A stretch of 64,000 nt of DNA from Flavobacteriaceae bacterium (GCA_016780345.1 JADHLZ010000003.1:1-64000); one strand, 5' to 3'; positions 37,050 through 60,496 are shown, counted from the first letter of the stretch. Notes: generated by a model from the sequence alone, not told the origin. Numbers and translations are program-made.

Positions 37050-39080
37050 ATGATACATATAGTTGTTTTATTATTAATCTTTTCTTTCAATTCTAATATT
37101 GAAGAGACTAAATTAAATTTATTGCCTTCCGTAAAGTTTAATTCTAAAATAAAAAAGTATTCAAATATTGATCCTGAAGATAAACTTGTAGCATCTTCGA
37201 ATTCTAATTTGCAATTACCAATTTTATATTCTAAAAATATTATTTATGGAGATCTTATGGAATCTGAAATTGAATTTAGTATTGATCCATCAGTTGATTT
37301 ACCAAGTGAAGGCTATTATTTGAAAATTGAAAAGAATAAAATAAAATTAACTGGAAAAGATAAAGCAGGTTTGTTTTACGCTTTTATTACTTTAGATCAA
37401 TTAATTGATGATTCAATTAATAATAAAACTAGTCTTCCAATTTTATCAATCAAAGATTTTCCATCTCTTGCGTTTAGACCAATTCATCTTGATTTAAAAC
37501 ATCACACAGAAAAGCAATCTTATTATTTTGAGTTAATTGATGAGTTAGCAAAACAAAAAATTAATGGAATAATTGTAGAGTTTGAAGACAAGTTAAAATA
37601 CGAATCGAGGCCTGAGGTAGGTTCATCTGATTCTTTTAGCATAGATTGGTGGATACAACTAAGTAATTATGCAAAAGAAAGAAATATTATGATTAATCCT
37701 TTAGTTCAAGGACTTGGACATGCGTCATACATTTTAAAACATAAAAAAAATCAACATTTAAGAGATGATCTTAAAAGTGATTGGGCTTTTAACCCGTTAA
37801 ATCCCCTAACATATAGGTTACAGTTTGATCTTTATTTGGATGCTATAAAGGCAACTCCACATGGAAAATATTTGCATGTGGGAGGTGATGAGGTTAATTT
37901 AATTAAAAGAGATAATAAATCTGAATTAGAATTAAACCTTATTTGGTTAAATAAGGTTTGTGAGTTTGCAGAAAAACATGATAGAATTCCAATTTTTTGG
38001 GACGATATGCCATTAAAGCATGCTGGATTTTGGAATTCACTATTTAATGATAAAATGACTGAAAGTCAAGTTGATGAACTGTGGAATAAAAATGAAATTA
38101 ACTTAATGAAATTCATTGAAAAGTTTCCTAAAAATGCTGTTTACATGAGATGGAATTATCAAAAATCAGATACATATGGAAACTTAAAAGCTATGGATTG
38201 GTATTCAAAAAATGATTTAAAAGTAATGGGTGCTAGTGCAGGTCAAACCAGATGGACTTTAATGCCTCAAAATGAAAGTAATATTTCACAAATAAGATCA
38301 TTTTCTATTAACTCTATTGAAAAAAAATTAGATGGACTGCTTTTAACTTTATGGGACGATGATTCTCCTCACTTTGAGCTTTATAAAAGAGGAATATCTG
38401 CTTTTTCTGAATATAGTTGGTCTGGAAATAATTTATCAATTGCCGAATTTAAATCTAGGTATAGATACAGAACCTTTGGATCTGAGTTTTCAAATTCTAA
38501 ATATGGTTTTATTGATATTCTTGAGAAGCCTGTGGAAATGTGGTTAAATATGCTGCTTTCTGAAAACGGTTGGAGGCCTGGATTATCTAAAAAACAGAAC
38601 CCATTAGAAACAGATATAATAGATTTACCAGATTTAAATAATAAAGGAAATTGGATTAAAAAACACAGTGAAAGAATAAAAAAAGCTAAAAAATCTCTAG
38701 AAATTTCTAAAAAAGTTGATTTGATTATTGATGAGATTCAAAAAAAAGAAGCTAAAAATCAATATGCACTGGATATTTACAAACAAGTTAATCAGTTAAC
38801 CAAATTTTCCTCAGAATTAATATTGAAACTTGAAAAAGTTGATAAAAGTGGAGATTTAAAACACTTATATGGCATTATAGCAGAGTTTGATAAAATGAGG
38901 TCTAAATTTGAAGACGTTTATTCAAAAACCAGAATGATTAATAAGCCAAATGACTACATTTTAGACCAGGATCACCATCATCATCCTGCTAATCAAACTA
39001 TAAATTTTGATTGGCAATTTTTGACAGAAATAATGTTATTAGAAAAAATTAATACAACCTATAATTATGAAAATTTATAA
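37050..39080 (+). CDS. Divergent GH20-type glycoside hydrolase (beta-N-acetylhexosaminidase-like), exported
   Basis: 676 aa with a short N-terminal hydrophobic stretch (MIHIVVLLLIFSFNS) that may be a signal peptide. Residues about 35-135 look like the GH20b accessory domain (YLKIEKNKIKLTGKDKAGLFYAFITLDQLI). The TIM barrel follows (FRPIHLDLKHHTEKQSYYFELIDELAKQKINGIIVEF) and contains the catalytic pair in LHVGGDEV near residue 280. The usual DSRH / HxxDDQGW segment is replaced by DLKHH and FEDKLKYES, so it is a remote subgroup and its sugar may not be GlcNAc. The C-terminal 130 residues are helical. The DUF1080 gene starts inside its last codons. Confidence 0.75.
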   Translation: MIHIVVLLLIFSFNSNIEETKLNLLPSVKFNSKIKKYSNIDPEDKLVASSNSNLQLPILYSKNIIYGDLMESEIEFSIDPSVDLPSEGYYLKIEKNKIKLTGKDKAGLFYAFITLDQLIDDSINNKTSLPILSIKDFPSLAFRPIHLDLKHHTEKQSYYFELIDELAKQKINGIIVEFEDKLKYESRPEVGSSDSFSIDWWIQLSNYAKERNIMINPLVQGLGHASYILKHKKNQHLRDDLKSDWAFNPLNPLTYRLQFDLYLDAIKATPHGKYLHVGGDEVNLIKRDNKSELELNLIWLNKVCEFAEKHDRIPIFWDDMPLKHAGFWNSLFNDKMTESQVDELWNKNEINLMKFIEKFPKNAVYMRWNYQKSDTYGNLKAMDWYSKNDLKVMGASAGQTRWTLMPQNESNISQIRSFSINSIEKKLDGLLLTLWDDDSPHFELYKRGISAFSEYSWSGNNLSIAEFKSRYRYRTFGSEFSNSKYGFIDILEKPVEMWLNMLLSENGWRPGLSKKQNPLETDIIDLPDLNNKGNWIKKHSERIKKAKKSLEISKKVDLIIDEIQKKEAKNQYALDIYKQVNQLTKFSSELILKLEKVDKSGDLKHLYGIIAEFDKMRSKFEDVYSKTRMINKPNDYILDQDHHHHPANQTINFDWQFLTEIMLLEKINTTYNYENL

Positions 39081-39774
39081 ACTTTACTTATTAGCAATTG
39101 TTTTTTTTACACAATCTTGCTCAGATGATAAATCAGATTGGATTTATTTATTCGATGGTAAAACAACTGATGGATGGAGAGCCTATAATGGAGACAAAAT
39201 TCCAGAAAAATGGGCAGTAGTTGATGGTGAACTAACCTTCAATACACAATTAAAGTTGGAGGGAGACTGGAAAGGTGGAGGAGATATAATTTATTATAAG
39301 GAACAATTTAAATACTTTGATTTATTTCTTGAATGGAAATTACCAAAAGGTGGTAATAGTGGAGTTTTTTATAATGTTCAAGAGGGATACGATGCACCTT
39401 ATGCAATTGCGCCTGAGTATCAATTATTAGATGATGATGGTTGGGAAGAAATAAACAATTCAAAACTTGAAGAATGGCAAAAAGCAGGTGCAAATTATGC
39501 TATGCACAAGGCTGATGTAAAAAAGAAAAAATTAAATCCTGCAGGCCATTGGAATTCATCAAGAATTGTTTACTCTGAAAACAAAGTTCAACATTGGTTA
39601 AATGGAGAATTGATATTAGAATTTGAACCCTATTCAGAGAACTGGTTCAAAAAAAGGAATTCAGGTAAATGGGACGGTTATCCAAATTATGGAAAATATA
39701 GGCAAGGATATATTGCACTTCAAGACCACGATTCTCCAATATGGTTTAGAAATATTAAAATCAAAAAATTATAA
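39067..39774 (+). CDS. DUF1080 (3-keto-disaccharide hydrolase family) lipoprotein
   Basis: 235 aa. The signal ends in a lipobox (LAIVFFTQSC), so it is a lipoprotein. The body is a complete DUF1080 jelly-roll: WIYLFDGKTTDGWRAYNGDKIPEKWAVVDGELTF, DLFLEWKLPKGGNSGVFYNVQEG, YQLLDDDG, HWNSSRIVYSENKVQHWLNGELILEFE and the end GYIALQDHDSPIWFRNIKIKKL. The Pfam family is named for cleavage of 3-keto-glycosides. It overlaps the GH20-type gene by 14 bases, so both probably act on the same glycan. Its stop abuts the end of a convergent gene. Confidence 0.87.
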   Translation: MKIYKLYLLAIVFFTQSCSDDKSDWIYLFDGKTTDGWRAYNGDKIPEKWAVVDGELTFNTQLKLEGDWKGGGDIIYYKEQFKYFDLFLEWKLPKGGNSGVFYNVQEGYDAPYAIAPEYQLLDDDGWEEINNSKLEEWQKAGANYAMHKADVKKKKLNPAGHWNSSRIVYSENKVQHWLNGELILEFEPYSENWFKKRNSGKWDGYPNYGKYRQGYIALQDHDSPIWFRNIKIKKL

Positions 39775-40899
39775 TTATTCAAAGATTTTTGAAATTACTG
39801 GAATTATTTTGTCAACCCATAGTTTGTACATTTTTCCACTAGGGTGCAATCTGTCATCAGCAATAAGACTTTCGTCAGTCAAAGCTCTTCTTGAAATTTG
39901 GGTGACATCAAAATATTGAACTCCTCTTTTTTCAGTTTCTTCTTTAATAACAGAATTAAATTCATCAATTTCTTTTGAAACTTTTGTTCTGTCAAAGCCA
40001 GCTCCAAAGGGACTTGCCCCCCAATCTGGAATTGAAACTACAAATAGTCTTTCTTTTTTATTTTTTACAAGTTTTAAAGATCTATCTAATATATCAACAA
40101 ATTCAGGTCTAAATCCAATAGCATTCTGGCCCTGAAACTGATTATTAACTCCAATAAGTAAGGATACTAAACCATATGGAGGATCTAAATTTGCATTATT
40201 CATGGCATTTTTTAGATCTTCTACTCTCCACCCTGATGTTGCAATTATTTGAAGTGTATCAATTTGATCGGTATATGATTTTAGTTCTTTTAAAAATTGA
40301 ACAGGCCACCTTTCACTAAAATCAACTCCAGCACCAATTGTGTAACTATCTCCAAGAGCTAGAAATTTTGAAGTATTTTTGCCAAGGAATTCTTCTTCAA
40401 AAACAGCTGTAATGTTTTTAATGCCATTAACGGTAATATTTTGAGGGTTTGTAGTTTTATTATTTATATCTCCTTTCCAATTAACAAATGACCAACCCGG
40501 GTTTGCATTAGCTAAAATTTCAACTATGCTTCCATGAACATAATCGTTTTTTATACCGTTTTGTATTAATCTTTTAGAAACCCAGCCATTTCCCTCAATA
40601 GAAATGTTTATTTCAAATTTTTTTTTTGAAAAATTCGCCGTTATAATTTTATCTGAATCAATTGTTAGCTCAATAATAGAATCATTACTAGAAAAGTCTC
40701 CAGACCAATTATTAAATAAATAATTTTTAGACGCTGATGCACTTGTATTTATGATTTCTCCTTCACGGTATAAATCAGAAGGCATGCTTATTGAACCTCC
40801 ATTATCAGGACTTACATTGAAATCTACTTTGTAAAAAACAGGATCTTTAGAACATGAGACTATAAAAAGTACACAATAAAATAAATTTTTTATTGACAA
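39775..40899 (-). CDS. SGNH/GDSL hydrolase lipoprotein with two InlB-like B-repeats
   Basis: 374 aa. The lipobox is in YCVLFIVSCSKD. Two divergent InlB B-repeat-like modules follow (about 25-95, ending KIITANF, and 95-170, ending NITAVF; each contains a W-x-G-D core such as FNNWSGDF and FVNWKGDI). The SGNH esterase domain has block I LALGDSYTIGAGV, the block III Asn in LIGVNNQF and the catalytic DRLHPS near the end. It probably removes acyl groups from a polysaccharide at the cell surface, with the repeats as spacer or binding modules. The C-terminus abuts the convergent DUF1080 gene. Confidence 0.85.
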   Translation of the reverse strand: MSIKNLFYCVLFIVSCSKDPVFYKVDFNVSPDNGGSISMPSDLYREGEIINTSASASKNYLFNNWSGDFSSNDSIIELTIDSDKIITANFSKKKFEINISIEGNGWVSKRLIQNGIKNDYVHGSIVEILANANPGWSFVNWKGDINNKTTNPQNITVNGIKNITAVFEEEFLGKNTSKFLALGDSYTIGAGVDFSERWPVQFLKELKSYTDQIDTLQIIATSGWRVEDLKNAMNNANLDPPYGLVSLLIGVNNQFQGQNAIGFRPEFVDILDRSLKLVKNKKERLFVVSIPDWGASPFGAGFDRTKVSKEIDEFNSVIKEETEKRGVQYFDVTQISRRALTDESLIADDRLHPSGKMYKLWVDKIIPVISKIFE

Positions 40900-40953
40900 T
40901 TGAGATTATTTATTAATAAATTAAATCAAATATTATGCTAAATAAGATTAAAA

Positions 40954-42315
40954 CTACAATGACCACCCTTTTCTGTAGGTTTTATGTAATAAAGCATTAG
41001 CTTGCTCATTGTTTTTGAATTTAAAGTTTTCTGAATCCCATTCAAGTTTTTGATTTTTTAACCTTATAGCTATCATTCCAAGTAATGCCATTTCGGTAAG
41101 TGGCCCACCATAATCAAAATTAGAGCTTGCTGGAATACCATCTTTACATGCTCTAATCCAATCTCCCTCATGAGTTGTATCTACTCTTGGAATGTAAGGT
41201 GATGGCTGTTTATAATTTAACATTTTTTCTTCGGGTAAAATTTTAACACCACTTGCTCCGTGTGAGTCATGAGTTATTTTTCCATTATCACCAATAAACA
41301 TAGCTCCGCTTAAAGTAAATTTTTCACCGCTTTTAAATTCATCGGGAATTGCTGGTTGAATTCTTCCATCTGACCATGTTAAATTTAACTCGGGATGTTT
41401 TCCTCTTTTTGGAAACTTCATCCTAACAATTGAAGCCGTTGGATAGGTTTGAGATTCAATTTCAGGTATATAGTGAGTAGATGAAGCTTGAATTTCTGTA
41501 GGAGCACCCAGTTCTAATGCATAAAAAGCAGGGTCTAAAATATGACATCCCATATCCCCCATTGAACCTGTTCCAAAATCAATCCAAGCTCGCCATGAAA
41601 GCGGATGATAGTCTGGATGATAATCTCTATATTTTGCTGGACCAAGCCACAAATCCCAGTCAAGACCCTCAGGAATTGGAGGTTTTTCGCTGGACTTAGC
41701 CTTAACAGCAAAAGTATCCCAAGCATTTCCTCCAAGTGGTCTGTCTGTCCAGGCATATAGTTGTCTTACAGGTCCAATAGCACCATCATCTATCCATTCT
41801 TTTAACTTTCTTATTTCATCTGAAGATCGTCCTTGATTACCCATCTGAGTTTGTACATTATATTTTCTGGCAGCTTTAGTTATTTCTCTTGCTTCATAGA
41901 CCGTGTGAGTTAATGGTTTTTGACAATAAACATGTTTTCCCATTTTTATGGCCTTCATCGTAATTACTGCATGATTGTGATCAGGTGTAGCTACAATTAC
42001 CGCATCAATATCTTTCTGCTTGTCAAGCATTACTCTATAATCCTTGTAGATTTTGGCTTTTGGATATTTGTCAAATGTTGGTTTAGATTGATTAAAATCC
42101 ACATCACACAAGGCCACGATATTTTCACTTCGACATTGATGGATATTGTTAGAACCCATTCCCCATTTTCTAACTCCTATACCTGCAATATTTAATTTAT
42201 CACTTGGAGCGGTATGCCCTTTTCCTCCTAAAACATGACGAGGCACAATGAATAGTGGTGGTATTACGATTGATTTTTTTAAAAAAATCCTTCTAGAATT
42301 ATTTTTTTTACTCAT
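40954..42315 (-). CDS. Gfo/Idh/MocA oxidoreductase, Tat-exported (first of three)
   Basis: 453 aa. The Tat signal has the motif NSRRIFLKKS at residues 6-15 and a weak hydrophobic stretch after it. The NAD(P)-binding start is LNIAGIGVRKWGMGSNNIHQC, and the catalytic-lysine motif is the variant GKHVYCQKPLTH (usual EKP). The C-terminal domain has GTGSMGDMGCHILDPAFYALELGAP. Family members oxidise or reduce sugar hydroxyls; the cofactor would be loaded before Tat export. Similar proteins abound in Planctomycetes. It is divergent from the next Gfo/Idh gene. Confidence 0.88.
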   Translation of the reverse strand: MSKKNNSRRIFLKKSIVIPPLFIVPRHVLGGKGHTAPSDKLNIAGIGVRKWGMGSNNIHQCRSENIVALCDVDFNQSKPTFDKYPKAKIYKDYRVMLDKQKDIDAVIVATPDHNHAVITMKAIKMGKHVYCQKPLTHTVYEAREITKAARKYNVQTQMGNQGRSSDEIRKLKEWIDDGAIGPVRQLYAWTDRPLGGNAWDTFAVKAKSSEKPPIPEGLDWDLWLGPAKYRDYHPDYHPLSWRAWIDFGTGSMGDMGCHILDPAFYALELGAPTEIQASSTHYIPEIESQTYPTASIVRMKFPKRGKHPELNLTWSDGRIQPAIPDEFKSGEKFTLSGAMFIGDNGKITHDSHGASGVKILPEEKMLNYKQPSPYIPRVDTTHEGDWIRACKDGIPASSNFDYGGPLTEMALLGMIAIRLKNQKLEWDSENFKFKNNEQANALLHKTYRKGWSL

Positions 42316-42481
42316 AATATTCGTGATTTATTTAAAGTTAAGTTTAATAACTTTTTAAAACAAGTTTTGAAAGACTAATGCTTTGTGTGTTCATATTAGT
42401 AGTTGACTTTTTATTGTTAATCTTAATTAAATTTTTTTGTTTAAATTTTTACTTAAATTTAAATAAATCATAAATTTAATA

Positions 42482-43825
42482 ATGAAAACTAAAAGGAGAA
42501 ATTTTATAAAATCATCTGCTGCGCTATTTTCAATGAGTTTATTGCCTTCATCATTATGGTCTTCTCAAAATAGAAGATTGAGAACTGCCCATATAGGTGT
42601 TGGAGGAATGGGAGCTGCAGATTTAAATGATATTGCATCACATAAATCTGTTGATGTAATTGCTCTGTGTGATGTAGATTCAAATGCTCTTCAAAAAGCA
42701 AGTGAATTATTTCCAAAAGCCAAAATCTACAAGGATTATAGAGAAATGTTTAATGAACTTTCAGATTCAATTGATGCTGTTATTGTATCCACACCAGATC
42801 ATACACATGCACCAGCTTCGATTATGGCTATGAATCTTAATAAAGCTGTTTATTGCCAAAAGCCATTAACACATCATGTTAGTGAGGCTAGAGCAATGAG
42901 AAAATTAGCGAATGAGAAAAATTTAATTACTCAAATGGGTATTCAAGTTCATTCATTTTACGATTATAAATTAGCCACATTATTAATTCAATCAGGAATA
43001 ATTGGAAGGGTTAGTAGAGTTAGAGCTTGGTCACCCAAAAATTGGGGATACGATGGCCCTAAACCAGAAGGTCAAGATAAAGCGCCAGAAAATTTAGATT
43101 GGAATTTGTGGCTTGGTACATCAGCTAAAAGACCTTATAAAGATAAATTATATCATCCTGGAAATTGGAGAAAAATAGTAGATTATGGATGTGGAACCTT
43201 GGGAGATATGGGAGTTCATATATTTGATACACCATATAATGCTTTAGAATTAGATGTCCCTTTAACTATTAAAAACAATTGTAGAAAACCAAATGAATTT
43301 GGATTTCCTGAAAAAAATCAAGTTACTTATCAATTTCCTGGAACAAAATATACCACAGATAAACTCGAATGGATTTGGCAAGACGGTTCAGGTGCTCCAA
43401 AAAAACATAAAGATTTAAGATTACCTAATAATGATAAGCTGCCATTACAGGGCGCAATGTTCATTGGAGAAAAGGGAAGATTGTTATTGCCTCATTTTAT
43501 GGAACTACCCAAACACATTGTTAATGGGAAATATGTGGATTTAGATATATCTAAGTTTGAAGAATCAGGACAAATAACTGACAAGCCCGTTAGAGATTAT
43601 GGTGGTGAGTCTTATTTGCATTACCATCAATTTGTAGATGCATGTTTAGGAAAAGATAAATGCTCAGCTCCTTTTTCATATTCTGCAAGGCTGACTGAGA
43701 CAATTCTTTTAGGTGTAATTGCTGGACGATTTCCAGGAAAAACATTACATTGGGATAATACTTCTGCCAAATTTCAGGAAGAGGAAGCAAATGAGTTTTT
43801 GGATTCACCTTATCGAGATTTTTAA
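42482..43825 (+). CDS. Gfo/Idh/MocA oxidoreductase, Tat-exported (second of three)
   Basis: 447 aa with Tat signal KRRNFIKSSAALFSMSLLPSSLWSS. The Rossmann motif is RTAHIGVGGMGAADLNDI with acidic residue ALCDVD, and the catalytic region NKAVYCQKPLTHHVSEARAM. The C-terminal domain has GCGTLGDMGVHIFDTPYNALELDVP. It is the same subgroup (CQKPLTH) as the divergent neighbour, so the two probably arose by duplication and may act on related sugars in opposite or sequential steps. It heads a plus-strand run with the FGE-like, TIM-barrel and third oxidoreductase genes. Confidence 0.88.
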   Translation: MKTKRRNFIKSSAALFSMSLLPSSLWSSQNRRLRTAHIGVGGMGAADLNDIASHKSVDVIALCDVDSNALQKASELFPKAKIYKDYREMFNELSDSIDAVIVSTPDHTHAPASIMAMNLNKAVYCQKPLTHHVSEARAMRKLANEKNLITQMGIQVHSFYDYKLATLLIQSGIIGRVSRVRAWSPKNWGYDGPKPEGQDKAPENLDWNLWLGTSAKRPYKDKLYHPGNWRKIVDYGCGTLGDMGVHIFDTPYNALELDVPLTIKNNCRKPNEFGFPEKNQVTYQFPGTKYTTDKLEWIWQDGSGAPKKHKDLRLPNNDKLPLQGAMFIGEKGRLLLPHFMELPKHIVNGKYVDLDISKFEESGQITDKPVRDYGGESYLHYHQFVDACLGKDKCSAPFSYSARLTETILLGVIAGRFPGKTLHWDNTSAKFQEEEANEFLDSPYRDF

Positions 43826-43868
43826 TTTACAATTAGCAAAGCAATCTTTTTTTGAGTAAATTGATTAA

Positions 43869-44831
43869 GTGAATAGAATAGTTTTAATCTTTTATTTTTC
43901 TTTTAATTTTTTGTGTTCTCAAAATGAATTTTCTGAGTACAATCAGTTAATTCTTGACACAGATTATAATCTTATAATGATTCCTATTTCTGGTGGAGAA
44001 TTCTCAATGGGAAGTCCTATTTTCGAAAAAAGCAGATTAGCTGACGAGGGACCGATCAGAAAAGTTAAAGTTGATTCCTTTTGGATGGCTAAATATGAAA
44101 CAACATGGGACTTGTTTAATCTTTTTGTAAGTCGAAACTTAGATGAACTTCAACCAAATTATGATAAAAAAAGTGAAGTTAATATTGATGTGGATGCAAT
44201 TTCAGGTGCAACAACCCCTTATGTTGAAATGAGTTTTGGTATGGGAGTACAAGGTTACCCCGCAATATCCATGACACAACTTGCTGCAAAAAAATTTTCT
44301 AAATGGCTGTCAGCTATGACAGGGAATTTTTATAGGCTTCCTACTGAAGCAGAATGGGAATATGCATGTAGAGCAAATTCAAATACATCTTACTCTTTTG
44401 GAAACGATCCTAAAGAACTAGATAAATATGCTTGGTATGATAAAAACAGTCAAAACAAATACCATAAAGTAGGGCAAAAACTTCCTAATAAGTGGGGTTT
44501 ACACGATATGCACGGAAATGTTTCGGAGTGGACCCTAGATGCATATAATCCTAGTTTTTATAGTCAAGAAAATAACATTCTTAATAACAATCCCTATAAC
44601 AAACCAATTAAGCTTTATCCGCGTGTTGTTCGTGGAGGTTCATGGATGAGTTCAGATTATAGGTTGAGGAGTGCTTCAAGGCAAGGGTCCTCAAAACAAT
44701 GGAAAAGACAAGATCCTCAAATCCCAAGAAGCAAATGGTGGCATACTGATGCTCAATTTGTAGGATTTAGACTGATTCGTCCATTAAAAACTCCTACTAT
44801 TGAGCAACAAAATGAATATTGGAATAATTAA
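43869..44831 (+). CDS. FGE-sulfatase-domain (SUMF1-like) protein lacking catalytic cysteines, secreted
   Basis: 320 aa, starting at GTG; signal peptide MNRIVLIFYFSFNFLCSQ. The SUMF1 fold is complete: MIPISGGEFSMGSPIFEKSRLADEGP, VDSFWMAKYETTWDLF, FYRLPTEAEWEYACRAN, WGLHDMHGNVSEWTLDAY, RVVRGGSWMSSDYRLRSASRQGS and FVGFRLIRP. True formylglycine-generating enzymes have two active-site cysteines just after RGGSW/Y; here that stretch has none, and no other Cys pair exists. It is therefore not a sulfatase activator. Related proteins serve as sugar-binding or other non-FGE enzymes. It sits between two Tat-exported sugar enzymes. Confidence 0.85.
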   Translation: MNRIVLIFYFSFNFLCSQNEFSEYNQLILDTDYNLIMIPISGGEFSMGSPIFEKSRLADEGPIRKVKVDSFWMAKYETTWDLFNLFVSRNLDELQPNYDKKSEVNIDVDAISGATTPYVEMSFGMGVQGYPAISMTQLAAKKFSKWLSAMTGNFYRLPTEAEWEYACRANSNTSYSFGNDPKELDKYAWYDKNSQNKYHKVGQKLPNKWGLHDMHGNVSEWTLDAYNPSFYSQENNILNNNPYNKPIKLYPRVVRGGSWMSSDYRLRSASRQGSSKQWKRQDPQIPRSKWWHTDAQFVGFRLIRPLKTPTIEQQNEYWNN

Positions 44832-44842
44832 TTAACAATACA

Positions 44843-45757
44843 ATGAAAAGAAGAAGTTTTTTAAAAAACTCAACGCTTGCAGGAGCTAGTTTTTTCCCAA
44901 TTCAAGCATTTGAATCGACTAATGAGCTTATTCAAAAAAATAATTTTAATTTAAAATATGCTCCTCATTTTGGAATGTTTAAAAATTACTCAGGAAGTGA
45001 TTTATTGAACCAGTTAAAATTTATGCGTGACTCAGGTTTCACTGCTTTTGAAGATAATGGAATGAAAGACAGGAGTATTGCTACACAAAATAAAATAGGA
45101 AAATTCTTAAATGACAATAATATGGAGATGGGAGTATTTGTTGCTCATAAAATCCATTGGAAAAAACCAAACCTGGCAAGTGGAAACCTAGACAAAAGAA
45201 ATGAATTTCTTAATGATATTAAAGAATCAATTGAAGTGGCAAAAAGAGTTAATGCAAAGTGGATGACAGTGGTCCCAGGTCACCTAGATTTAAGATTAGA
45301 CATGAACTTTCAAACTCAAAATGTGATTGAAGCTTTAAAGCAAGCTTCTGGAATTTTAGAACCACACAATTTAACAATGGTTTTAGAACCATTGAACTTC
45401 AGAGATCATCCAGGATTGTTTTTAACAGAAAGCCCGCAAGCATATAAAATTTGTAGAGAAGTTGATTCTCCATCATGTAAAATATTATTTGACATTTATC
45501 ATCAACAGATTCAAGAGGGTAATTTAATTCCTAATATCGAATTTACGTGGAATGAAATAGCTTATTTTCAAATTGGGGACAATCCAGGCAGAAACGAACC
45601 TACAACTGGAGAAATTAATTATAAAAATATTTTTAAATATATTTCTGAAAAGGGATATAAGGGAATACTTGGGATGGAGCATGGAAATTCATTAAAAGGA
45701 ATAAAAGGTGAAGAAAAAATTATAAATTCCTATAGGGAAGTAGACAACTTTAAATAA
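44843..45757 (+). CDS. Hydroxypyruvate isomerase-like TIM-barrel protein with Tat signal
   Basis: 304 aa. The Tat signal is KRRSFLKNSTLAGASFFP. The barrel carries the metal-site residues of the hydroxypyruvate isomerase / sugar-phosphate isomerase-epimerase family: Glu in MVLEPLNFRDHPG, Asp and His in LFDIYHQQIQEG, then FQIGDNPGRNEPTTGEINYKNIF and the final Glu in GMEHGNS. Proteins of this fold also act as lyases on 3-keto-glycosides together with Gfo/Idh enzymes, in C-deglycosylation systems. Here it is exported and next to such oxidoreductases, which favours that role over cytoplasmic hydroxypyruvate metabolism. Confidence 0.85.
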   Translation: MKRRSFLKNSTLAGASFFPIQAFESTNELIQKNNFNLKYAPHFGMFKNYSGSDLLNQLKFMRDSGFTAFEDNGMKDRSIATQNKIGKFLNDNNMEMGVFVAHKIHWKKPNLASGNLDKRNEFLNDIKESIEVAKRVNAKWMTVVPGHLDLRLDMNFQTQNVIEALKQASGILEPHNLTMVLEPLNFRDHPGLFLTESPQAYKICREVDSPSCKILFDIYHQQIQEGNLIPNIEFTWNEIAYFQIGDNPGRNEPTTGEINYKNIFKYISEKGYKGILGMEHGNSLKGIKGEEKIINSYREVDNFK

Positions 45758-45762
45758 TAATT

Positions 45763-47079
45763 ATGAAAAACAGCAACTTTTCAAGAAGAACATTTGTTAA
45801 ATCAGCAACTCTTACAGGAGGTCTATTGCTATCTCCTAGTTTTTCCTTGGAAGCGATGGCAAATAGTTCAAATAATAAGAAATTAAAATTGGCTTTAGTT
45901 GGTTGTGGTGGAAGAGGAACTGGGGCAGCCGTTCAGGCACTCAGAGCGGATAAAGATGTTGAACTAGTTGCTGTTGCAGATGCCTTTAAAGACAGGATAG
46001 AATCTAGTTTAAAATCTATTTATGAAGAACTGGACGGGGAAATTGAGGTTAAAGTGAAGGAAAAAAATAGATTTGTTGGATTTAACTCCTATCAAAAAGC
46101 AATTGATAAAGCTGATGTTGTCATTCTAACAACACCACCAGGTTTTAGACCATTACATTTTAAATATGCTATTGATAATGATAAGCATGTTTTCATGGAA
46201 AAACCGGTTGCTACTGATGCTGCTGGTGTAAGACAAGTTTTAAATTCAGCTAAAATTGCAACTAAGAAAAAATTAAATGTGGTTGTAGGTTTACAAAGAA
46301 GATATCAAAACAGTTATAATAGGACATTAAAATATATTGAGGACGGAACTGTTGGTAAAATTCTTTCTGGACAAGTCTATTGGAACAGCTCAGGTGTTTG
46401 GGTAAGAAAAAGAATTTCAGGTCAGAGTGAAATGGAATACCAGATGCGAAATTGGTATTATTTTAATTGGCTGTGTGGTGATCATATTTTAGAACAACAT
46501 ATTCACAATATTGATGTGGCAAACTGGTTCATTGGTGAATATCCTAAATCTGCTGCTGGAATGGGTGGAAGAGAGGTTAGAAATGGATTAGATCATGGAG
46601 AGATTTTTGATCATCATTATGTTGAATTTAAATATCCAGGAGGAGCAGTAGTGTCAAGTCAATGTAGACATCAACCAGGAACTAAATTTAATGTTAGTGA
46701 AGCTTTCCAGGGTTCAAAAAATAATATCACAACATCTGGTGATTATTGCAATGTGATAAGTCACGAGGGAAAAAGTGTTTACAAACACAATCCTAATGAT
46801 GATAAAAGTCCATATCAAATTGAACATGATAAATTATTTGAATCAATTAGATCAGGTGGGTTAATAAATGATGCTGAATATGGAGCTAAATCTACTCTTA
46901 CTGCGATTATGGGTAGGATGGCGACATATACTGGAAAAGAAATTAATTGGGATCAGGCTTTAAATTCTCAAGAAATATTAGTGCCTGAAAATCTAAGTTG
47001 GAATTCAATACCACCAACTCTTCCTGATCAGAATGGAAGATATAAAATCCCTGTTCCAGGTGTTACAAAAATATTATAA
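45763..47079 (+). CDS. Gfo/Idh/MocA oxidoreductase, Tat-exported (third of three)
   Basis: 438 aa with Tat signal FSRRTFVKSATLTGGLLLSPSF. The Rossmann motif is LALVGCGGRGTGAAVQAL, and the catalytic motif is the classical DKHVFMEKPVATDAAGV. The C-terminal domain has WYYFNWLCGDHILEQHIHNIDVANWFIGEYP with several His residues at the likely active site. It belongs to a different subgroup from the two CQKPLTH enzymes, suggesting a different step of the same pathway. It lies 5 bases after the TIM-barrel gene. Confidence 0.89.
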   Translation: MKNSNFSRRTFVKSATLTGGLLLSPSFSLEAMANSSNNKKLKLALVGCGGRGTGAAVQALRADKDVELVAVADAFKDRIESSLKSIYEELDGEIEVKVKEKNRFVGFNSYQKAIDKADVVILTTPPGFRPLHFKYAIDNDKHVFMEKPVATDAAGVRQVLNSAKIATKKKLNVVVGLQRRYQNSYNRTLKYIEDGTVGKILSGQVYWNSSGVWVRKRISGQSEMEYQMRNWYYFNWLCGDHILEQHIHNIDVANWFIGEYPKSAAGMGGREVRNGLDHGEIFDHHYVEFKYPGGAVVSSQCRHQPGTKFNVSEAFQGSKNNITTSGDYCNVISHEGKSVYKHNPNDDKSPYQIEHDKLFESIRSGGLINDAEYGAKSTLTAIMGRMATYTGKEINWDQALNSQEILVPENLSWNSIPPTLPDQNGRYKIPVPGVTKIL

Positions 47080-47080
47080 T

Positions 47081-47992
47081 TTGAAAAGGCTATTAAAGTT
47101 TCATTTTTTAGTATTAATTTTTTTATCATGTAGTGATAGTGATGATGATTATGTAATAATCGATGATAATTCTAATTGGACTCAAAAAGAATTTAAAATG
47201 AATTATGATGGATTGGAAAGAGTCTACATTTTATATAAACCAAAGAATTTTTCTGAAAATGCCCCACTAGTGATGATGCTTCACGGTTATTCTAGCAATA
47301 GAAATAATATTCTTTCCTATTCACAAATGAATTCAATTGCAGATCGAAATGGATTTATGGTGTGTTATCCTCAAGGTTCAATCACTCCCTTAACGGGACA
47401 AACTCATTGGAATGCAAATCTTCAAATGAGTGATGTTAATGATATTGGTTTTTTATCAAATTTAGTTTCTAATATTCAACAACAATATAAAACCAGTAAG
47501 GAAAATGTTTTTGTTTCAGGAATGTCAAATGGTGGATTTATGTCCTACACTTTAGGTTGTGAAAAATCTGATATTTTTAAAGCAGTTGCATCAATTACTG
47601 GCACTATGAGCGGTTATGATTGGCAAAATTGTTCTCCAGCATATAAAATCCCTATTTTACAAATGTCAGGAACAAACGATTTAACAGTCCCATGGGATGG
47701 AACGATGAATACTGCTTTAGGTTGGGGAGGGGCTCCACATATATTGGAGGTTATGGAGTTTTGGTCTGATATAAATAACTGTATTGAGGATGAAATAATA
47801 AATTTTCCCGATGTTGATAAAACAGATTATTCAACAGTCTCATTGACTAAAAAAAAGGGCGGAAGTTATGATAATGAAGTTTGGTTTTACAAAGTTGATG
47901 GAGGGGGACACGACTGGCCAGGAGCTTGGGGAAATCAAGATATTAATGCAAGCGAAGAAATTTGGAAATTTTTTAAAAAGCATCTTAATTAA
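47081..47992 (+). CDS. PHB depolymerase/feruloyl-esterase-like alpha/beta hydrolase lipoprotein
   Basis: The ORF opens at 47033 inside the previous gene. A TTG at 47081, just past that gene's stop, gives MKRLLKFHFLVLIFLSC, a textbook lipoprotein signal, and is preferred. The esterase domain has APLVMMLHGYSSNRNN, the GFMVCYPQG strand, the nucleophile GMSNGGFMSYTLGC, LQMSGTNDLTVPWDG with the acidic residue, and the catalytic His in GGGHDWPG. LpqC-type enzymes cleave acetyl, feruloyl or hydroxyalkanoate esters on polymers. Its end overlaps the convergent DUF1501 gene by 4 bases. Confidence 0.84.
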   Translation: MKRLLKFHFLVLIFLSCSDSDDDYVIIDDNSNWTQKEFKMNYDGLERVYILYKPKNFSENAPLVMMLHGYSSNRNNILSYSQMNSIADRNGFMVCYPQGSITPLTGQTHWNANLQMSDVNDIGFLSNLVSNIQQQYKTSKENVFVSGMSNGGFMSYTLGCEKSDIFKAVASITGTMSGYDWQNCSPAYKIPILQMSGTNDLTVPWDGTMNTALGWGGAPHILEVMEFWSDINNCIEDEIINFPDVDKTDYSTVSLTKKKGGSYDNEVWFYKVDGGGHDWPGAWGNQDINASEEIWKFFKKHLN

Positions 47993-49455
47993 GAAAGTAT
48001 GTCTTTAACAACATGTCCTGAAACATCTGTTAATCTAAATCTTCTTCCTTGGTGCTTGTAAGTCATTTTTGTATGATCTATTCCAAACTGATTCAAAATA
48101 GTTGCTTGTAAATCATGAACATGAACAGGATCTTTTATTATGTTATATCCTAAATCGTCAGTTTCACCATAGCTAAACCCAGGTTTAATTCCAGCGCCAG
48201 CCATAAATACAGTAAATGAGCGCGGGTGGTGATCTCTTCCGTAATTAGTGTCTGTTAAATTTCCTTGACAATAATTAGTTCTTCCAAACTCACCTCCCCA
48301 AACAACTAAAGTATCTTCTAATAAACCTCTCTGTTTAAGATCCATTATTAAAGCTGCTGTTGGTTGGTCAACATCACTTGACTGCCCTTTTATTTGAGTT
48401 GGAAGATTTTCATGCTGGTCCCAACCCATATGGTATAATTGAACAAACCTAACATCTTTTTCGATTAGTCTTCTAGCTTGAATGCAATTAGCAGCATATG
48501 TACCCGGTTTTTGAGAATTTGGACCGTACATTTTTAAAATATGATCAGGTTCATCCGAAATATCCATTGTTTTTGGAACCGAAGTTTGCATCCTGTAGGC
48601 CATTTCATATTGCGCAATTCTACTGCTTATTTCTGGATCATCAAAAAAAGCTTCTTGTTTGTAATTTAGTTCAGCTAAATAATCTAACATTTTTCTTCTC
48701 TCATGAGCAGAAACACCATCAGGATTTTTTAGATACAAAACAGGATCTTTTGCAGATCTAAATTGAACTCCTTGATGAAGAGAACTTAAAAATCCATTTC
48801 CCCAAAGTCTAGAATACAAAGGCTGTCCTTTAGGTCGACCAGTTCCATTGGATAACAAAACAACAAATGAGGGCATATTATTATTTAAGCTTCCAAGTCC
48901 ATAACTCATCCATGAACCCATACTTGGTCTTCCAGGCTGTTGTGATCCAGTTTGAAAAAAAGTTATAGCAGGATCATGATTAATAGCTTCTGTATGCATT
49001 GACTTTATAAAGCATAATTCATCTGCAATTTTACCCACATATGGCATAAGTTCACTTACCCAAGCTCTAGATTCACCATATTGCTTAAAGTTGTAATTAC
49101 TTCCAACAAGTGGAAATTTATCCTGACCTGATGTCATACCGGTAAGTCTTTGTCCATCTCTTACAGATTCTGGAAGATTACTTCCTCTCAACTCATTTAG
49201 CATTGGCTTATAATCAAATAAATCAAGCTGTGAGGGACCTCCACTTTGAAACAGATATATAATTCTTTTTGCTTTAGGAGCAAAATGTGGAAGATTTAAT
49301 TCGTTATTATTTAAACTTGAAAATGGATCAACTTCTTTTCCAAAGTTAAATGGGTCTAGTAGAGAACCCAAAGCAAGTCCTCCAATACCAAGTCCAGCTT
49401 TTTTAAGAAAGTTTCTTCTATTATTATTTAAAAAATGCTTGTGTAATTCTTCCAT
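47989..49455 (-). CDS. DUF1501 family protein (sulfatase/alkaline-phosphatase-like fold), Tat-exported
   Basis: 488 aa. The Tat signal is NNRRNFLKKAGLGIGGLALGSLL. The body shows the DUF1501 hallmarks AKRIIYLFQSGGPSQLDLFDYKP, MHTEAINHDPAITFFQTG, PGRPSMGSWMSYGLGS, WDQHENLP, LVVWGGEFGRTNYCQG and GRDHHPRSFTVFMAGAGIKPGFSYGETDDLG. DUF1501 proteins belong to the alkaline-phosphatase superfamily by fold and always pair with DUF1549/DUF1553 proteins in Planctomycetes; reaction unknown. The pair is present here, 6 bases apart. Confidence 0.88.
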   Translation of the reverse strand: MEELHKHFLNNNRRNFLKKAGLGIGGLALGSLLDPFNFGKEVDPFSSLNNNELNLPHFAPKAKRIIYLFQSGGPSQLDLFDYKPMLNELRGSNLPESVRDGQRLTGMTSGQDKFPLVGSNYNFKQYGESRAWVSELMPYVGKIADELCFIKSMHTEAINHDPAITFFQTGSQQPGRPSMGSWMSYGLGSLNNNMPSFVVLLSNGTGRPKGQPLYSRLWGNGFLSSLHQGVQFRSAKDPVLYLKNPDGVSAHERRKMLDYLAELNYKQEAFFDDPEISSRIAQYEMAYRMQTSVPKTMDISDEPDHILKMYGPNSQKPGTYAANCIQARRLIEKDVRFVQLYHMGWDQHENLPTQIKGQSSDVDQPTAALIMDLKQRGLLEDTLVVWGGEFGRTNYCQGNLTDTNYGRDHHPRSFTVFMAGAGIKPGFSYGETDDLGYNIIKDPVHVHDLQATILNQFGIDHTKMTYKHQGRRFRLTDVSGHVVKDILS

Positions 49456-49461
49456 GATTTT

Positions 49462-51750
49462 CTAACTTTTTTGAGTCGTTTCGTCTAGATTATACACTAA
49501 AACCACTAAAGAATTAAAAGCTTTACTTTCTTCAATTTTGTTTAAACTTTTAATTTCGTTTAAATATTTTTTTAATTCTTCTATTTCATCTTCTTTTGGA
49601 GTTCTTCCAGTAACAGTTCTATACAGTTTGTTAATTTTTTTCTCTATACTAGTGTCCTCATTAAATATATTATGAGATAAATTTTCCGCAGCTATTTGAT
49701 ACTGAGGATCGTTCATTAAAGCTAATGATTGTAATGGAGTGCTTGTTTTTTGACGAACCGGAGAACAAAAATCTCTGGTTGGTGCATCAAAAATCATCAT
49801 TGAAGGAGGAGGAACTGTTCTTTTCCAAAAGGTATATAAGCTTCTTCTATATAAATTTTCTCCAGTATCTTCTACATAGAAAGCTAAACTACCACCACCA
49901 CCACCTGTAACTTCGTCCCAAAGCCCAGGTGGTTGCATGGGTTTTACGCTAGGTCCACCAACTTTGTTAACTAACATTCCACTTGTTGCAAGTGCATTAT
50001 CTCTAATCATTTCTGCAGATAGTTTTTGTCTTGGGTAATTTGCTAAGTAAGTATTATCAGGATCTTTTAATCTATTTTCGTCTTTGACCTTGCTTGATTG
50101 TTTATAGGTTGAAGACATCACGATTCTTTTAATGAATTTTTTTGTATCCCATTTGTCATGATGTTGAAAAGTATATGCAAGCCAGTCTAACAGTTCGGGA
50201 TTAAATGGTTTATTTCCTTGACTTCCAAAGTCATCAGGTGTTGCTACTATTCCTACTCCAAAAAATTGTTGCCATAATCTATTAACTGTAACTCTTGATG
50301 TTAAAGGATTGTCATCATCGAAAAACCATTTGGATAATCCTATTCTGTTTGAAGGGTATTTATCTTTGTCAAATTTTAAAACAACTTCTGGAGTACTAGG
50401 CTTGACTAGCTTTGTAGGAGAATCATAACTTCCTCTATTTAATACATAAGTATTTCTTAGGTTCTCAGTCTCTTTCATAACCATCAACGTTACATCATTA
50501 ATACTATCAGGTAAATTGATAAAAGAAAGATCTTTATTAATATCGGCTTTTTTGATGGTTAAATTTGGTTTTGGTGCAGTAATACCATAGCCAATTAAAC
50601 CGTCTTCATCAACATTATTAAAAAAACTATATAAGCTAAAAAATTCGTCATGAGAAATTGGATCGTATTTGTGAGTATGACATCTTGCACATTCCACGGT
50701 TAGACCCATCATTATTTTTGCAGATGTCACTGTCCTATCAGCAACATACTCGACTCTATATTCTTCAGGAACTACTCCACCCTCTTGAGTTATCTTATGA
50801 TTTCTGTTAAATCCAGATGCAATTATTTGTTCTTTGGTTGCATTAGGAAGCATATCACCAGCCATTTGCCAAGTAATGAATTTATCGTACGTCATATTAG
50901 TATTATACGCATGGATTACCCAATCTCTCCAAGGCCACATTATTCTTTCTTGATCATCTTGGTATCCGTGACTGTCCCCGTATCTAGACAGATCCATCCA
51001 AATTGCAGCCATTCTTTCCCCGTAGGATTTTGATTCAAGTAATTTATCAATTACTTTTTCATATGCGTTATTACTATTATCTGAAATAAATTCGTCAACT
51101 TCTTGAATAGTGGGTGGTAAACCTATTAAGTCAAAATATGCTCTTCGTATTAAAATTTCCTTTTCTTCTTTTTCTGAGGGAGTCATTCCAACAGACTCTA
51201 GTTTTTTTGCAATGAAATAATCTATCTCATTTGAAGCCCAGTTTTTTGAATCTATCTTAGGTATACTAGGTAATTTAGGTTTAGTATACGCCCAATGTGG
51301 CTCCCAATTTCCCCCTTGATCAACCCACTTTTTAAGAATTTCTTTTTCTCTAGCCGAAAGTTTTAAATTGGATTCAGGTGGTGGCATAACGTAGCTAGCG
51401 TTTTCACTATTTATCCTATTTAAAATTTCACTCTTTTCAGGATTGTTTTTATTTATAACATAATAATTTGGATTGTCTTCAAGACTTTTGTAAAAACCAC
51501 TTTCAATATCAAGCCTAAGGTTTGCTTTTCGGGTTTTATCATCAGGACCATGACAGGTGTAGCATTTATCAGATAATATTGGTTTTACGTCAAAATTAAA
51601 GTTTACTTCATCGATTTTAAAACTAGATTTTATTAATTCAACAGATTGCTTTGTGTTATAAATTTCAGTAACTGAAGGTTTTGAACTAAAGTATTTTAAT
51701 ATTAAAACACATAGAAGCGGAATAATAAAAAATAATAAGTCTTTTTTCAT
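49462..51750 (-). CDS. DUF1549/DUF1553 protein with cytochrome-c-like haem motifs (planctomycete type)
   Basis: 762 aa. A hydrophobic N-terminus (LLFFIIPLLCVLILKYF) acts as anchor or signal. A PSCyt1 domain with haem motif CYTCH is at residues 63-67 (PILSDKCYTCHGPDDKTRKANLRLD). DUF1549 follows (WASNEIDYFIAKKLESVGM, RRAYFDLIGLPPT, WMDLSRYGDSHGY), a second haem motif CARCH at 354-358, and DUF1553 (NPLTSRVTVNRLWQQFFGVGIVATPDDFGSQG, RRSLYTFWKRTVPPPSM). It would sit in the periplasm holding one or two c-type haems. Role unknown; pairing with DUF1501 is the family rule. Confidence 0.9.
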   Translation of the reverse strand: MKKDLLFFIIPLLCVLILKYFSSKPSVTEIYNTKQSVELIKSSFKIDEVNFNFDVKPILSDKCYTCHGPDDKTRKANLRLDIESGFYKSLEDNPNYYVINKNNPEKSEILNRINSENASYVMPPPESNLKLSAREKEILKKWVDQGGNWEPHWAYTKPKLPSIPKIDSKNWASNEIDYFIAKKLESVGMTPSEKEEKEILIRRAYFDLIGLPPTIQEVDEFISDNSNNAYEKVIDKLLESKSYGERMAAIWMDLSRYGDSHGYQDDQERIMWPWRDWVIHAYNTNMTYDKFITWQMAGDMLPNATKEQIIASGFNRNHKITQEGGVVPEEYRVEYVADRTVTSAKIMMGLTVECARCHTHKYDPISHDEFFSLYSFFNNVDEDGLIGYGITAPKPNLTIKKADINKDLSFINLPDSINDVTLMVMKETENLRNTYVLNRGSYDSPTKLVKPSTPEVVLKFDKDKYPSNRIGLSKWFFDDDNPLTSRVTVNRLWQQFFGVGIVATPDDFGSQGNKPFNPELLDWLAYTFQHHDKWDTKKFIKRIVMSSTYKQSSKVKDENRLKDPDNTYLANYPRQKLSAEMIRDNALATSGMLVNKVGGPSVKPMQPPGLWDEVTGGGGGSLAFYVEDTGENLYRRSLYTFWKRTVPPPSMMIFDAPTRDFCSPVRQKTSTPLQSLALMNDPQYQIAAENLSHNIFNEDTSIEKKINKLYRTVTGRTPKEDEIEELKKYLNEIKSLNKIEESKAFNSLVVLVYNLDETTQKS

Positions 51751-55609: not shown

Positions 55610-56509
55610 TTAAAAAATTTCTTTATACTTGAAAACGATTGAAAACCCTTTTTCAAAAAAATATTCCTTTGAATCAAGGGGTCCTGCAGCTAAAATAAAA
55701 TCTCCTCCCCAAGCACCTAAACTTTTTATTTTTCCATTGTAATCATTAAAATACTTTTTCTTAATTAACTCTTTACCTATTGTTTTAGAAATAATTAATT
55801 CATGTTCAGATATACATCTTTGAAAATCTTCTAAGTTTTTGGCGTTAATAAATCTTGTTGTTAACTCAGAGATTTTTCTAACTAAACTTTCATCAAATTT
55901 AATATTAGAAAAATTATCAACTTCAACATTACTATCTTGTTTTTTATTTAGATAAACGAAAAATAAGTGGTTTTTAAAATTTGGATTGAATTTTACCTGC
56001 TTTACATTAGGCTTATTATTGATCAATGTATAAATTAGAGGTTTTTCAGAATTTGCACAAGCAATGTCATACCCACTTCCTTTAAAATTATTCCATAAAA
56101 GCTCATAGGGGTCAATTTTGGCCCATAAAGCAATATTATTGATAAGAGTAGATGAGGTTCCCAAACCCCAATTAGTTTCAAAATTTAATGAAGTTGTAAC
56201 TTCTCCACCTTGATTTTTTTGTAAGAATTCTGAATTTATGTTTCTAGCTGATCTTAAGATTTTCTGTAAATTAAGACTTTGCTTGTTTTTATCGCTAAGT
56301 ATTGAAATATTATTTAAATCAAAAAGAACTTCAATCCAAACTTGATTATGACTATCTAAGCTTGTCCATTTTAATTTGTTTGATGCGTTGTATTTAAATT
56401 CTAAATCTTGTTTAAATTTTGTTGGGATTGCAAATGATTTAGCACCCTTTAGTACATAATATTCTGCTGTTATTAATAATTTTCCAGGGCTAGATACTTT
56501 AAAATCCAT
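55610..56509 (-). CDS. GYDIA family GHMP kinase (probable mevalonate-pathway kinase)
   Basis: 299 aa. The N-terminus SPGKLLITAEYYVLKGAKSFAIPTKF parallels the mevalonate/phosphomevalonate kinase opening. The ATP loop is NWGLGTSSTLINNIALWAK, and the family's name motif is GSGYDIACANSEKPLIY near residue 150. The C-terminal loop is LGAWGGDFILAAG. It abuts the HMG-CoA reductase gene, so it most likely phosphorylates mevalonate or phosphomevalonate for isoprenoid synthesis, which also feeds UppS. Which of the two steps is not certain. Confidence 0.85.
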   Translation of the reverse strand: MDFKVSSPGKLLITAEYYVLKGAKSFAIPTKFKQDLEFKYNASNKLKWTSLDSHNQVWIEVLFDLNNISILSDKNKQSLNLQKILRSARNINSEFLQKNQGGEVTTSLNFETNWGLGTSSTLINNIALWAKIDPYELLWNNFKGSGYDIACANSEKPLIYTLINNKPNVKQVKFNPNFKNHLFFVYLNKKQDSNVEVDNFSNIKFDESLVRKISELTTRFINAKNLEDFQRCISEHELIISKTIGKELIKKKYFNDYNGKIKSLGAWGGDFILAAGPLDSKEYFFEKGFSIVFKYKEIF

Positions 56510-59431: not shown

Positions 59432-60496
59432 ATGATTTCTAAAGCTCCTGCAAGAATTTGTTTGTTTGGTGATCATCAAGATTATTTGGGACTACCTGTG
59501 ATTGCTTGTGCCATAGATAAATATTTGACAGTATCTGGAATTCCTAACCAAACCGATCTTTTAAATTTTGATTTAATTGATTTGAATAGACATAGAGCTA
59601 TAAATATTAATAGGGATTTGTCACAAATTGAAAAAGGAGATCATATTTTGTTTGTTTTAAAAACCTTAAAAAATCATGGGGTTATTATTAATAATGGATA
59701 TGATATTAAAATAAAAAGTGAAATTTTCATTAATGCTGGTATATCTAGTTCATCAGCTTTAATTGTCGCTTTAATAAATTTTTTTTTAAAAATTTATAAT
59801 CCTGAAAAAGTTAGTGCTAAATACATTTCTGAATTAGCATATGAAAGTGAAGTTTTACAGCAAGGAGGATCTGGAGGAAAAATGGATCAGTATTCAATAT
59901 CATATGGAAATACAATTTTTTTAGAAACTGGGGTTAATAATAGTTTAAAAAAAATAAAATTACCGTTTAGAAATTTTATAATAGCAAATTCTGGAGTTAA
60001 AAAACAAACGGACCAAATACTTTCTGAATTAAAGATTAAAACACTTGATGCAATTAAAAATATAAGTAAGCACTATCCAGCTTTTAAATTATGTGATATA
60101 AAACAGAGGCAAGTAAATGATTTTAGAGGTTTAATTGATGAAAAATCTTTTCAATATTTTAAAGCTGCAATTATAAATCATACAATTACTTTAGATGCTT
60201 TGTATGAGATAGAAAAAGAAAAGCCTGATTTAATAAGGCTGGGAAAATTAATGATTAAACATCATAATGTTTTAAAAAATAAACTTTGTATAACTGTTCC
60301 TAAAATTGATAGGATGATTGATTTGGTCAAAAAAAACGGAGCATATGGATATAAAATAATTGGTTCTGGAGGAGGTGGTTCAATATTAATTTTAGCCAAA
60401 AATAAGTTTCATGAAAAAATTATAAATGATCTAAAAAAAATAGGAGTCAATGAGATTGTAAAATCTAATGAGTCCCCTGGTATACTTAATCTATAA
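59432..60496 (+). CDS. Galactokinase-like GHMP sugar kinase
   Basis: 354 aa, cytoplasmic. Motif 1 is APARICLFGDHQDYLGLPVIACAID (compare GEHTDYNGG...LPxAID of galactokinase), motif 2 FINAGISSSSALIVAL, the catalytic-Asp motif GGSGGKMDQYSISYGN, and motif 3 GSGGGGSILIL. Galactokinase relatives phosphorylate C1 of galactose, N-acetylgalactosamine, fucose or related sugars. The gene lies between a sulfatase and a symporter followed by NagB/LmbE, so an amino-sugar or galactose-type substrate is likely, but it cannot be fixed from sequence. Confidence 0.85.
   Translation: MISKAPARICLFGDHQDYLGLPVIACAIDKYLTVSGIPNQTDLLNFDLIDLNRHRAININRDLSQIEKGDHILFVLKTLKNHGVIINNGYDIKIKSEIFINAGISSSSALIVALINFFLKIYNPEKVSAKYISELAYESEVLQQGGSGGKMDQYSISYGNTIFLETGVNNSLKKIKLPFRNFIIANSGVKKQTDQILSELKIKTLDAIKNISKHYPAFKLCDIKQRQVNDFRGLIDEKSFQYFKAAIINHTITLDALYEIEKEKPDLIRLGKLMIKHHNVLKNKLCITVPKIDRMIDLVKKNGAYGYKIIGSGGGGSILILAKNKFHEKIINDLKKIGVNEIVKSNESPGILNL

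Follow-up and report, generated by a model that had tools for sequence, protein, structure and literature searches.

The stretch analysed here, 64,000 nucleotides from a Flavobacteriaceae bacterium (GCA_016780345.1, JADHLZ010000003.1:1-64000; hereafter the window), carries a block of genes for putatively exported sugar oxidoreductases and their partners, which consists of two modules, A and B. The window corresponds to contig C28 in an assembly of 1.39 Mb and 78% completeness, from a small-genome marine member of the family. The block opens on the plus strand with a divergent GH20-family protein resembling beta-N-acetylhexosaminidases (37050..39080; Pfam GH20b E 1e-11, GH20 E 1.5e-07), the 3' end of which overlaps by 14 nt the start of a probable lipoprotein of the DUF1080, or 3-keto-disaccharide hydrolase, family (39067..39774; PF06439 E 1e-47; module A). 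It is then interrupted by two genes on the opposite strand, one for a probable lipoprotein with an InlB repeat and a GDSL hydrolase domain, both recognised by Pfam (39775..40899), and one for Gfo1, a Gfo/Idh/MocA oxidoreductase (40954..42315). The plus strand continues with Gfo2, a second protein of this family and the partner of DUF1080 in module A (42482..43825), and with the three genes of module B: a protein similar to SUMF1 and to formylglycine-generating enzymes (43869..44831; PF03781 E 1e-41), a triosephosphate isomerase (TIM) barrel resembling hydroxypyruvate isomerases and ketose epimerases (44843..45757; PF01261 E 8e-31), and a third Gfo/Idh/MocA protein, Gfo3 (45763..47079; PF01408 E 1.6e-11). 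The last gene of the run encodes a genus-specific lipoprotein resembling PHB depolymerases and feruloyl esterases (47033..47992). As the gaps from Gfo2 onwards measure 43, 11 and 5 bp and the final pair overlaps, the run from Gfo2 to the esterase is consistent with an operon. The Pfam GFO_IDH_MocA domain is found in the three Gfo proteins with E-values of 2e-19, 3e-19 and 2e-11. Given that the whole assembly contains only seven Gfo/Idh/MocA matches and four DUF1080 genes, three of the former and one of the latter within 8 kb represent a real concentration. The original prediction had read DUF1080, the three Gfo proteins and the TIM barrel as a single exported pathway for 3-keto-glycosides. All five open reading frames are present as described and belong to the Pfam families named; the SUMF1-like and GH20 genes had been left out of the block, and Gfo1 and the GDSL gene lie on the opposite strand.

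Gfo1, Gfo2, the TIM barrel and Gfo3 all begin with a twin-arginine signal in which an n-region with RRxF precedes a hydrophobic stretch. The arginine pair is retained in the close orthologues of Gfo1 (6/6), the TIM barrel (11/11) and Gfo3 (10/10), and RR or KR is present in 80/80 Gfo2 orthologues. With TatC encoded in the same assembly, on contig C46, the twin-arginine translocation (Tat) first proposed for these four proteins is supported. Since enzymes of the envelope that depend on nicotinamide adenine dinucleotide (NAD) are cut off from the cytosolic NAD pool, a bound, internally recycled cofactor, of the kind present in GH109 (PMC10755693), would be the natural solution. Surface export of DUF1080 by way of its CSDDKSD start was considered and set aside, the acidic stretch not being conserved among orthologues.

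The core of module A was delineated in 80 Bacteroidota loci selected by similarity to Gfo2, with the other 1,027 genes of these loci as a control. DUF1080 lies immediately upstream of Gfo2 on the same strand in 49/78 loci, compared with 14/1,027 of the other genes (Fisher 7e-52, shared ancestry ignored), and the intervening gaps are mostly below 140 bp. It is found at most three genes away in 57 of the 74 loci with enough sequence. Insertions split the pair in both the window and its sister species, where either the GDSL and Gfo1 genes or a GH2 gene have come between the two partners; the GDSL gene, present in 3/80 Gfo2 loci, is a lineage-specific insertion. The gene directly upstream of DUF1080 encodes a GH20 protein in 11/53 loci and a GH109 protein in 9/53 (20/53 together), and loci of the L073 type have the order GH20-DUF1080-Gfo2-Gfo beside SusC, SusD and a sulfatase. 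GH20, GH109, GH2, sulfatase or SusC/SusD genes are close by in many module A loci, and these neighbours suggest that the substrate may be a glycan containing N-acetylhexosamine and often sulfated. The statement that SusC/SusD is absent agrees, as regards SusD, with the window's contig, on which none was found; the genome has three SusD genes on other contigs. The GH20 protein of the window keeps the catalytic D-E pair (LHVGGDEV, with GGDE at residue 278; HVGGDE aligns with 8qk1); its domain scores above the cut-off yet is divergent, with GH20 matches in the PDB from E 6e-10. Two GH109 proteins lie directly upstream of DUF1080 in related loci (L071:5876-7270 and L138), the former with a twin-arginine signal, and a further GH109 protein with such a signal is encoded on contig C11 of the window genome (L009:5899-7278), after a GalE-like gene and near GH65.

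The proteins of module A can be placed among families with a known role in 3-keto-glycoside metabolism. DUF1080 matches PF06439 with 163 bits (gathering cut-off 26.8) over the complete profile (1-187 of 187), and its nearest PDB chain is 3u1x (1.9e-47), with 8tda/8tde at about 4e-36. The NCBIfam model BT_2158_fam (NF058561) recognises Gfo1 with 506.7 bits (residues 7-442 to model positions 1-438 of 487) and Gfo2 with 309 bits (residues 4-440 to the same positions). The nearest solved structures of both are 8tdf/8tdh, Gfo1 matching 8tdf with E 3e-102, and none of the three passes the BT_2159 model (NF058563, cut-off 650; Gfo1 41, Gfo2 51 and Gfo3 20 bits). A maximum-likelihood tree places Gfo1 inside the 8TDF clade (97/96), its exact position there being weakly supported; Gfo2 forms a separate clade, sister to the BT2158-like one, and Gfo3 a distinct clade. 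Gfo1 is thus a probable glycoside 3-dehydrogenase. Gfo1, Gfo2 and Gfo3 all retain the lysine of the KP motif and a D/E-x3-H motif, and each has an Asp following beta-2, which suggests NAD as their cofactor. According to PMC11300592, BT2158 is a periplasmic glycoside 3-dehydrogenase required for the use of disaccharides and glucosinolate, and PMC9007349 cites the DUF1080 protein BT2157 as a hydrolase of 3-ketotrehalose; deletion of BT2157 or BT2158 has no effect on raffinose-family sugars (PMC11501099). Family models, structural matches and linkage together support exported 3-keto-glycoside breakdown as the predicted function of DUF1080 and the BT2158-like Gfo proteins, in agreement with that part of the original prediction.

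Module B is held together by a different set of linkages. The TIM barrel and Gfo3 each have orthologues in about 5% of 295 other genomes of the class, and 13 genomes contain both (co-occurrence 13/16, Fisher 9e-20, shared ancestry ignored). No neighbour of Gfo3 is better conserved than the SUMF1-like gene, which adjoins it upstream in 13 of the 14 class-level orthologues; ApbE lies within 1.5 kb of eight of these and the TIM barrel within 1.5 kb of seven. At the level of the phylum, Gfo3 stands alongside in 22/29 SUMF1-like loci. Outside the genus, DUF1080 accompanies module B only occasionally (L160, L173, L204). These counts indicate that TIM and Gfo3 belong together, generally without DUF1080, and the block of the window is two modules and not one five-enzyme pathway. 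Within the genus, E146-K147-P148, E244 and H248 of Gfo3 are invariant. Its best matches are inositol dehydrogenases, weakly, and its AlphaFold2 model, built from eight close sequences, was too poor for fold comparison (predicted local distance difference test, pLDDT, 44).

The TIM barrel had been taken for a glycoside lyase, a role that its sequence, profile and fold do not bear out. It matches PF01261 (AP_endonuc_2, the superfamily of xylose-isomerase-like isomerases and epimerases) with 108 bits (cut-off 31.1), and the presumed metal ligands E182, D217, Q243 and E279 are conserved in the genus alignment. By profile and by fold (structure model of pLDDT 78), the nearest structures are those of the hydroxypyruvate isomerase type (3ngf/1k77) and ketose 3-epimerases, with a weaker match to YcjR (6wn6). 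It falls below the equivalog cut-offs for hydroxypyruvate isomerase (TIGR03234, 134 of 353 bits) and 2-oxo-tetronate isomerase (NF043033, 132 of 325 bits). The eliminase AtOGE has His132/His134 (PMC10628242). Where eliminases carry the catalytic His, two residues beyond the metal ligand of beta-5, the TIM barrel has Leu184 (EPLN), a position set by motif and not by structural superposition. A function as a 3-keto-glycoside eliminase is not supported, the ExH histidine of such enzymes being absent here, and the nearest structures, the metal ligands and Leu184 lead us to read the protein as an isomerase or epimerase.

The SUMF1-like protein has only two cysteines, C16 and C167, and none in RGGSWMSSDYRLRSASRQ, the stretch where the copper-binding cysteine pair of formylglycine-generating enzymes would lie. 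A Cys-type sulfatase (CAPAR) is encoded in the window at 57908-59431. A role of the SUMF1-like protein in maturing it was rejected, and because these cysteines are missing the sulfatase maturation enzyme must sit elsewhere.

On balance, and with slightly better than even confidence, we propose that two envelope sugar-oxidoreduction modules have been joined in the window, module A for 3-keto cleavage and module B for the rearrangement of keto-sugars. In module A, a Tat-exported Gfo protein with bound NAD+ would oxidise C3 of a glycoside, the DUF1080 lipoprotein would break the activated bond by elimination and hydration, and a Gfo protein would give the hydride back to the released 3-keto sugar, so that no soluble NAD(H) would be needed. 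The input would be oligosaccharides trimmed by co-encoded enzymes (GH20 here; GH109, GH2 or sulfatase in sister species), and the BT2158-like Gfo1 would be an addition to a core of DUF1080 and Gfo2. For module B, by analogy with the E. coli cytoplasmic enzymes YcjS, a glucoside 3-dehydrogenase, and YcjR, a 3-keto-glucoside 4-epimerase, the most likely course is that a sugar is oxidised, its keto form isomerised or epimerised by the TIM barrel, and the product re-reduced.

Several observations weigh against this proposal. In an even, unbiased sample of 296 genomes of the class, Gfo2 has orthologues in just five others, and DUF1080 lies within 1.5 kb of only two of the five, at 29% identity. The clues to the substrate come from neighbouring genes alone. 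Gfo1 (507 bits) and Gfo2 (309 bits) both score under the NF058561 equivalog cut-off of 750, and functional identity with BT2158 is therefore not established. The TIM barrel matches YcjR weakly (E 3e-09), and we know of no member of module B that has been assayed. Furthermore, in six loci (L081, L126, L128, L133, L135 and L142) the genes after Gfo2 encode a small protein and then a GMC oxidoreductase dependent on flavin adenine dinucleotide (FAD), and contig C40 of the window genome carries a second locus of the 3-keto type (L008:4703-10057), with a Gluconate_2-dh3 subunit, a GMC oxidoreductase, DUF1080, a BT2158-like Gfo and ThuA.

These GMC loci raise the possibility that oxidation is carried out by a flavoenzyme, which is the basis of the strongest rival explanation: an FAD-dependent glucoside 3-dehydrogenase of the LacA type, passing electrons to the respiratory chain, would oxidise C3, and the Gfo proteins would act as reductases only. 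This arrangement has precedents in Caulobacter, where DUF1080 is tied to LacABC lactose oxidation, and in Pedobacter, where a putative lactose dehydrogenase is important for the use of lactose and salicin (PMC9007349). Nevertheless, the block itself has no GMC gene, and the closest relative studied by experiment, BT2158, is an oxidising 3-dehydrogenase (PMC11300592); we regard flavoenzyme oxidation as unlikely here, if deserving of serious consideration. In L081:2719-13583 and in L126, L128, L133 and L142, an operon of Gfo1-like, GalE and TIM genes is situated near DUF1080, Gfo2, the small protein and GMC and may represent a more complete form of the pathway; in L142, no DUF1080 was detected between that operon and the Gfo2/GMC part.

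The single pathway first envisaged, in which oxidation would fall to two Gfo proteins with CQKP, elimination to the TIM barrel, hydrolysis to DUF1080 and reduction to the Gfo protein with EKP, draws on the presence of all the genes together in this genus and on levoglucosan and C-glycoside routes, which reportedly proceed by oxidation, elimination, hydration and reduction. It is improbable given the isomerase-like TIM barrel and the usual occurrence of module B without DUF1080 elsewhere. The motif distinction on which it relied is also unstable: window Gfo1 has QKP, whereas its 91%-identical orthologue has EKP, as does 8TDF, and the assignment of oxidation and reduction roles from this residue was discarded. 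Still less probable is a scheme in which each Gfo protein works alone as an NAD-dependent glycosidase of the GH109 kind, every step taking place in a single active site, with DUF1080 as an accessory. GH109 enzymes and sulfoquinovosidases do use NAD-dependent C3 oxidation (PMC10755693), and a GH109 gene is found at the equivalent place of the operon in sister species and also on contig C11 of the window genome; however, the GH109 C-terminal domain PF21252, present in the L071 and L009 proteins, is absent from Gfo1, Gfo2 and Gfo3, which have KP where GH109 has VP and fall in separate clades. Very improbable, in view of the tight DUF1080-Gfo2 pairing and the relationship to BT2158, is a reading without any 3-keto-glycoside cleavage, in which DUF1080 simply hydrolyses or binds a glycan in the usual way and the substrates of the Gfo proteins are free sugars, cyclitols or amino-sugars derived from that glycan. 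In its favour, PMC9007349 cites THTE_1561, a DUF1080 protein with a single domain, as an endo-xanthanase/lichenase, and Gfo3 tends weakly towards inositol dehydrogenases.

The least probable reading concerns module B, which would be an envelope electron-transfer unit with a SUMF1-like protein covalently flavinylated by ApbE and receiving electrons from NADH in Gfo3. It derives from DAISGAT at residues 109-115 of the SUMF1-like protein (window 44193-44213), where every orthologue in the genus has DxxSGAT, the ApbE flavinylation consensus. This consensus occurs in 28/1,769 open reading frames scanned, and the window genome encodes a single ApbE, located on a different contig. The same columns in other clades mostly read D[AG]x[ST]xP[TS] (TRPT, SRPS, SLPT, STPT), ApbE-adjacent ones included, and the main flavinylation survey mentions neither sulfatase-type nor Gfo proteins. 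As the xPT form prevails elsewhere and the consensus is absent from the ApbE-linked clades, the match is probably a coincidence.

Around these modules, the esterase that ends the plus-strand run narrowly exceeds its model (e_dPHAscl_type1, 152.5 bits, cut-off 150) and is present in 10/80 loci. It is followed at 47989-51750 by a DUF1501 protein with a Tat signal and a PSCyt1/PSCyt2/PSD1 protein, a pair of a type typical of Planctomycetes that is 72-93% conserved beside the cluster in the genus. An HMG-CoA reductase and a GYDIA-family GHMP kinase lie at 55610-57832, and downstream of the sulfatase a second GHMP kinase (59432-60496) is intermediate between the mevalonate kinase and galactokinase models. 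A promoter scan returned 72 matches, with 55 +/- 8 expected, and was uninformative.

The proposed arrangement would link a recently described redox pathway for cutting glycans with the classical degradation genes (GH20, GH109, GH2, sulfatases, SusC/SusD) of ocean Bacteroidota with small genomes. The DUF1080-Gfo2 combination offers a precise gene pair for tracking the 3-keto route in marine data, and the module of SUMF1-like protein, Gfo3 and TIM barrel, often with ApbE, is singled out as a second conserved exported module, to which, to our knowledge, no function has been assigned so far.

The 3-keto-glycoside chemistry itself is established and not new, and the window can be set beside several known systems. 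The eliminases CGE and AtOGE (PMC10628242) are likewise TIM barrels that use a divalent metal and act after C3 oxidation, but the window protein was not recovered with them in the profile search and is without their ExH histidine. Caulobacter LacABC shares with module A the action of DUF1080 on a periplasmic 3-keto-glycoside (PMC9007349); there the dehydrogenase is membrane-bound and of another type, whereas here an NAD-dependent Gfo is predicted, albeit with the GMC/Gluconate_2-dh3/DUF1080 locus elsewhere in the genome. GH109 N-acetylgalactosaminidases have in common the Gfo/Idh/MocA fold, export, bound NAD and C3 oxidation-elimination, as well as the operon position in sister species; they differ in C-terminal domain and motif, and perform all steps in one enzyme. 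E. coli YcjQRS resembles module B in combining a Gfo/Idh/MocA protein with a TIM barrel of related fold, but it is cytoplasmic whereas module B is Tat-exported, it has no counterpart of the SUMF1-like protein, and the similarity in sequence is distant. The closest parallel is BT2156-BT2160 of Bacteroides thetaiotaomicron, a broad-specificity 3-keto-glycoside pathway of which Nasseri et al. reportedly gave a full biochemical account in Nature in 2024 (doi 10.1038/s41586-024-07574-y, cited in PMC12291463). Both systems combine DUF1080 with an exported BT2158-type Gfo, and in both a further Gfo and a TIM barrel are encoded close by. In the window, by contrast, Gfo1 and Gfo2 score below the cut-off, a good match to BT2159 is missing, Gfo2 belongs to a separate sister clade, and the TIM barrel stands with Gfo3 in a module of its own; GH20, GH109, GH2 and sulfatase genes are the characteristic neighbours, and SUMF1-like, esterase and GDSL genes are added to the block.

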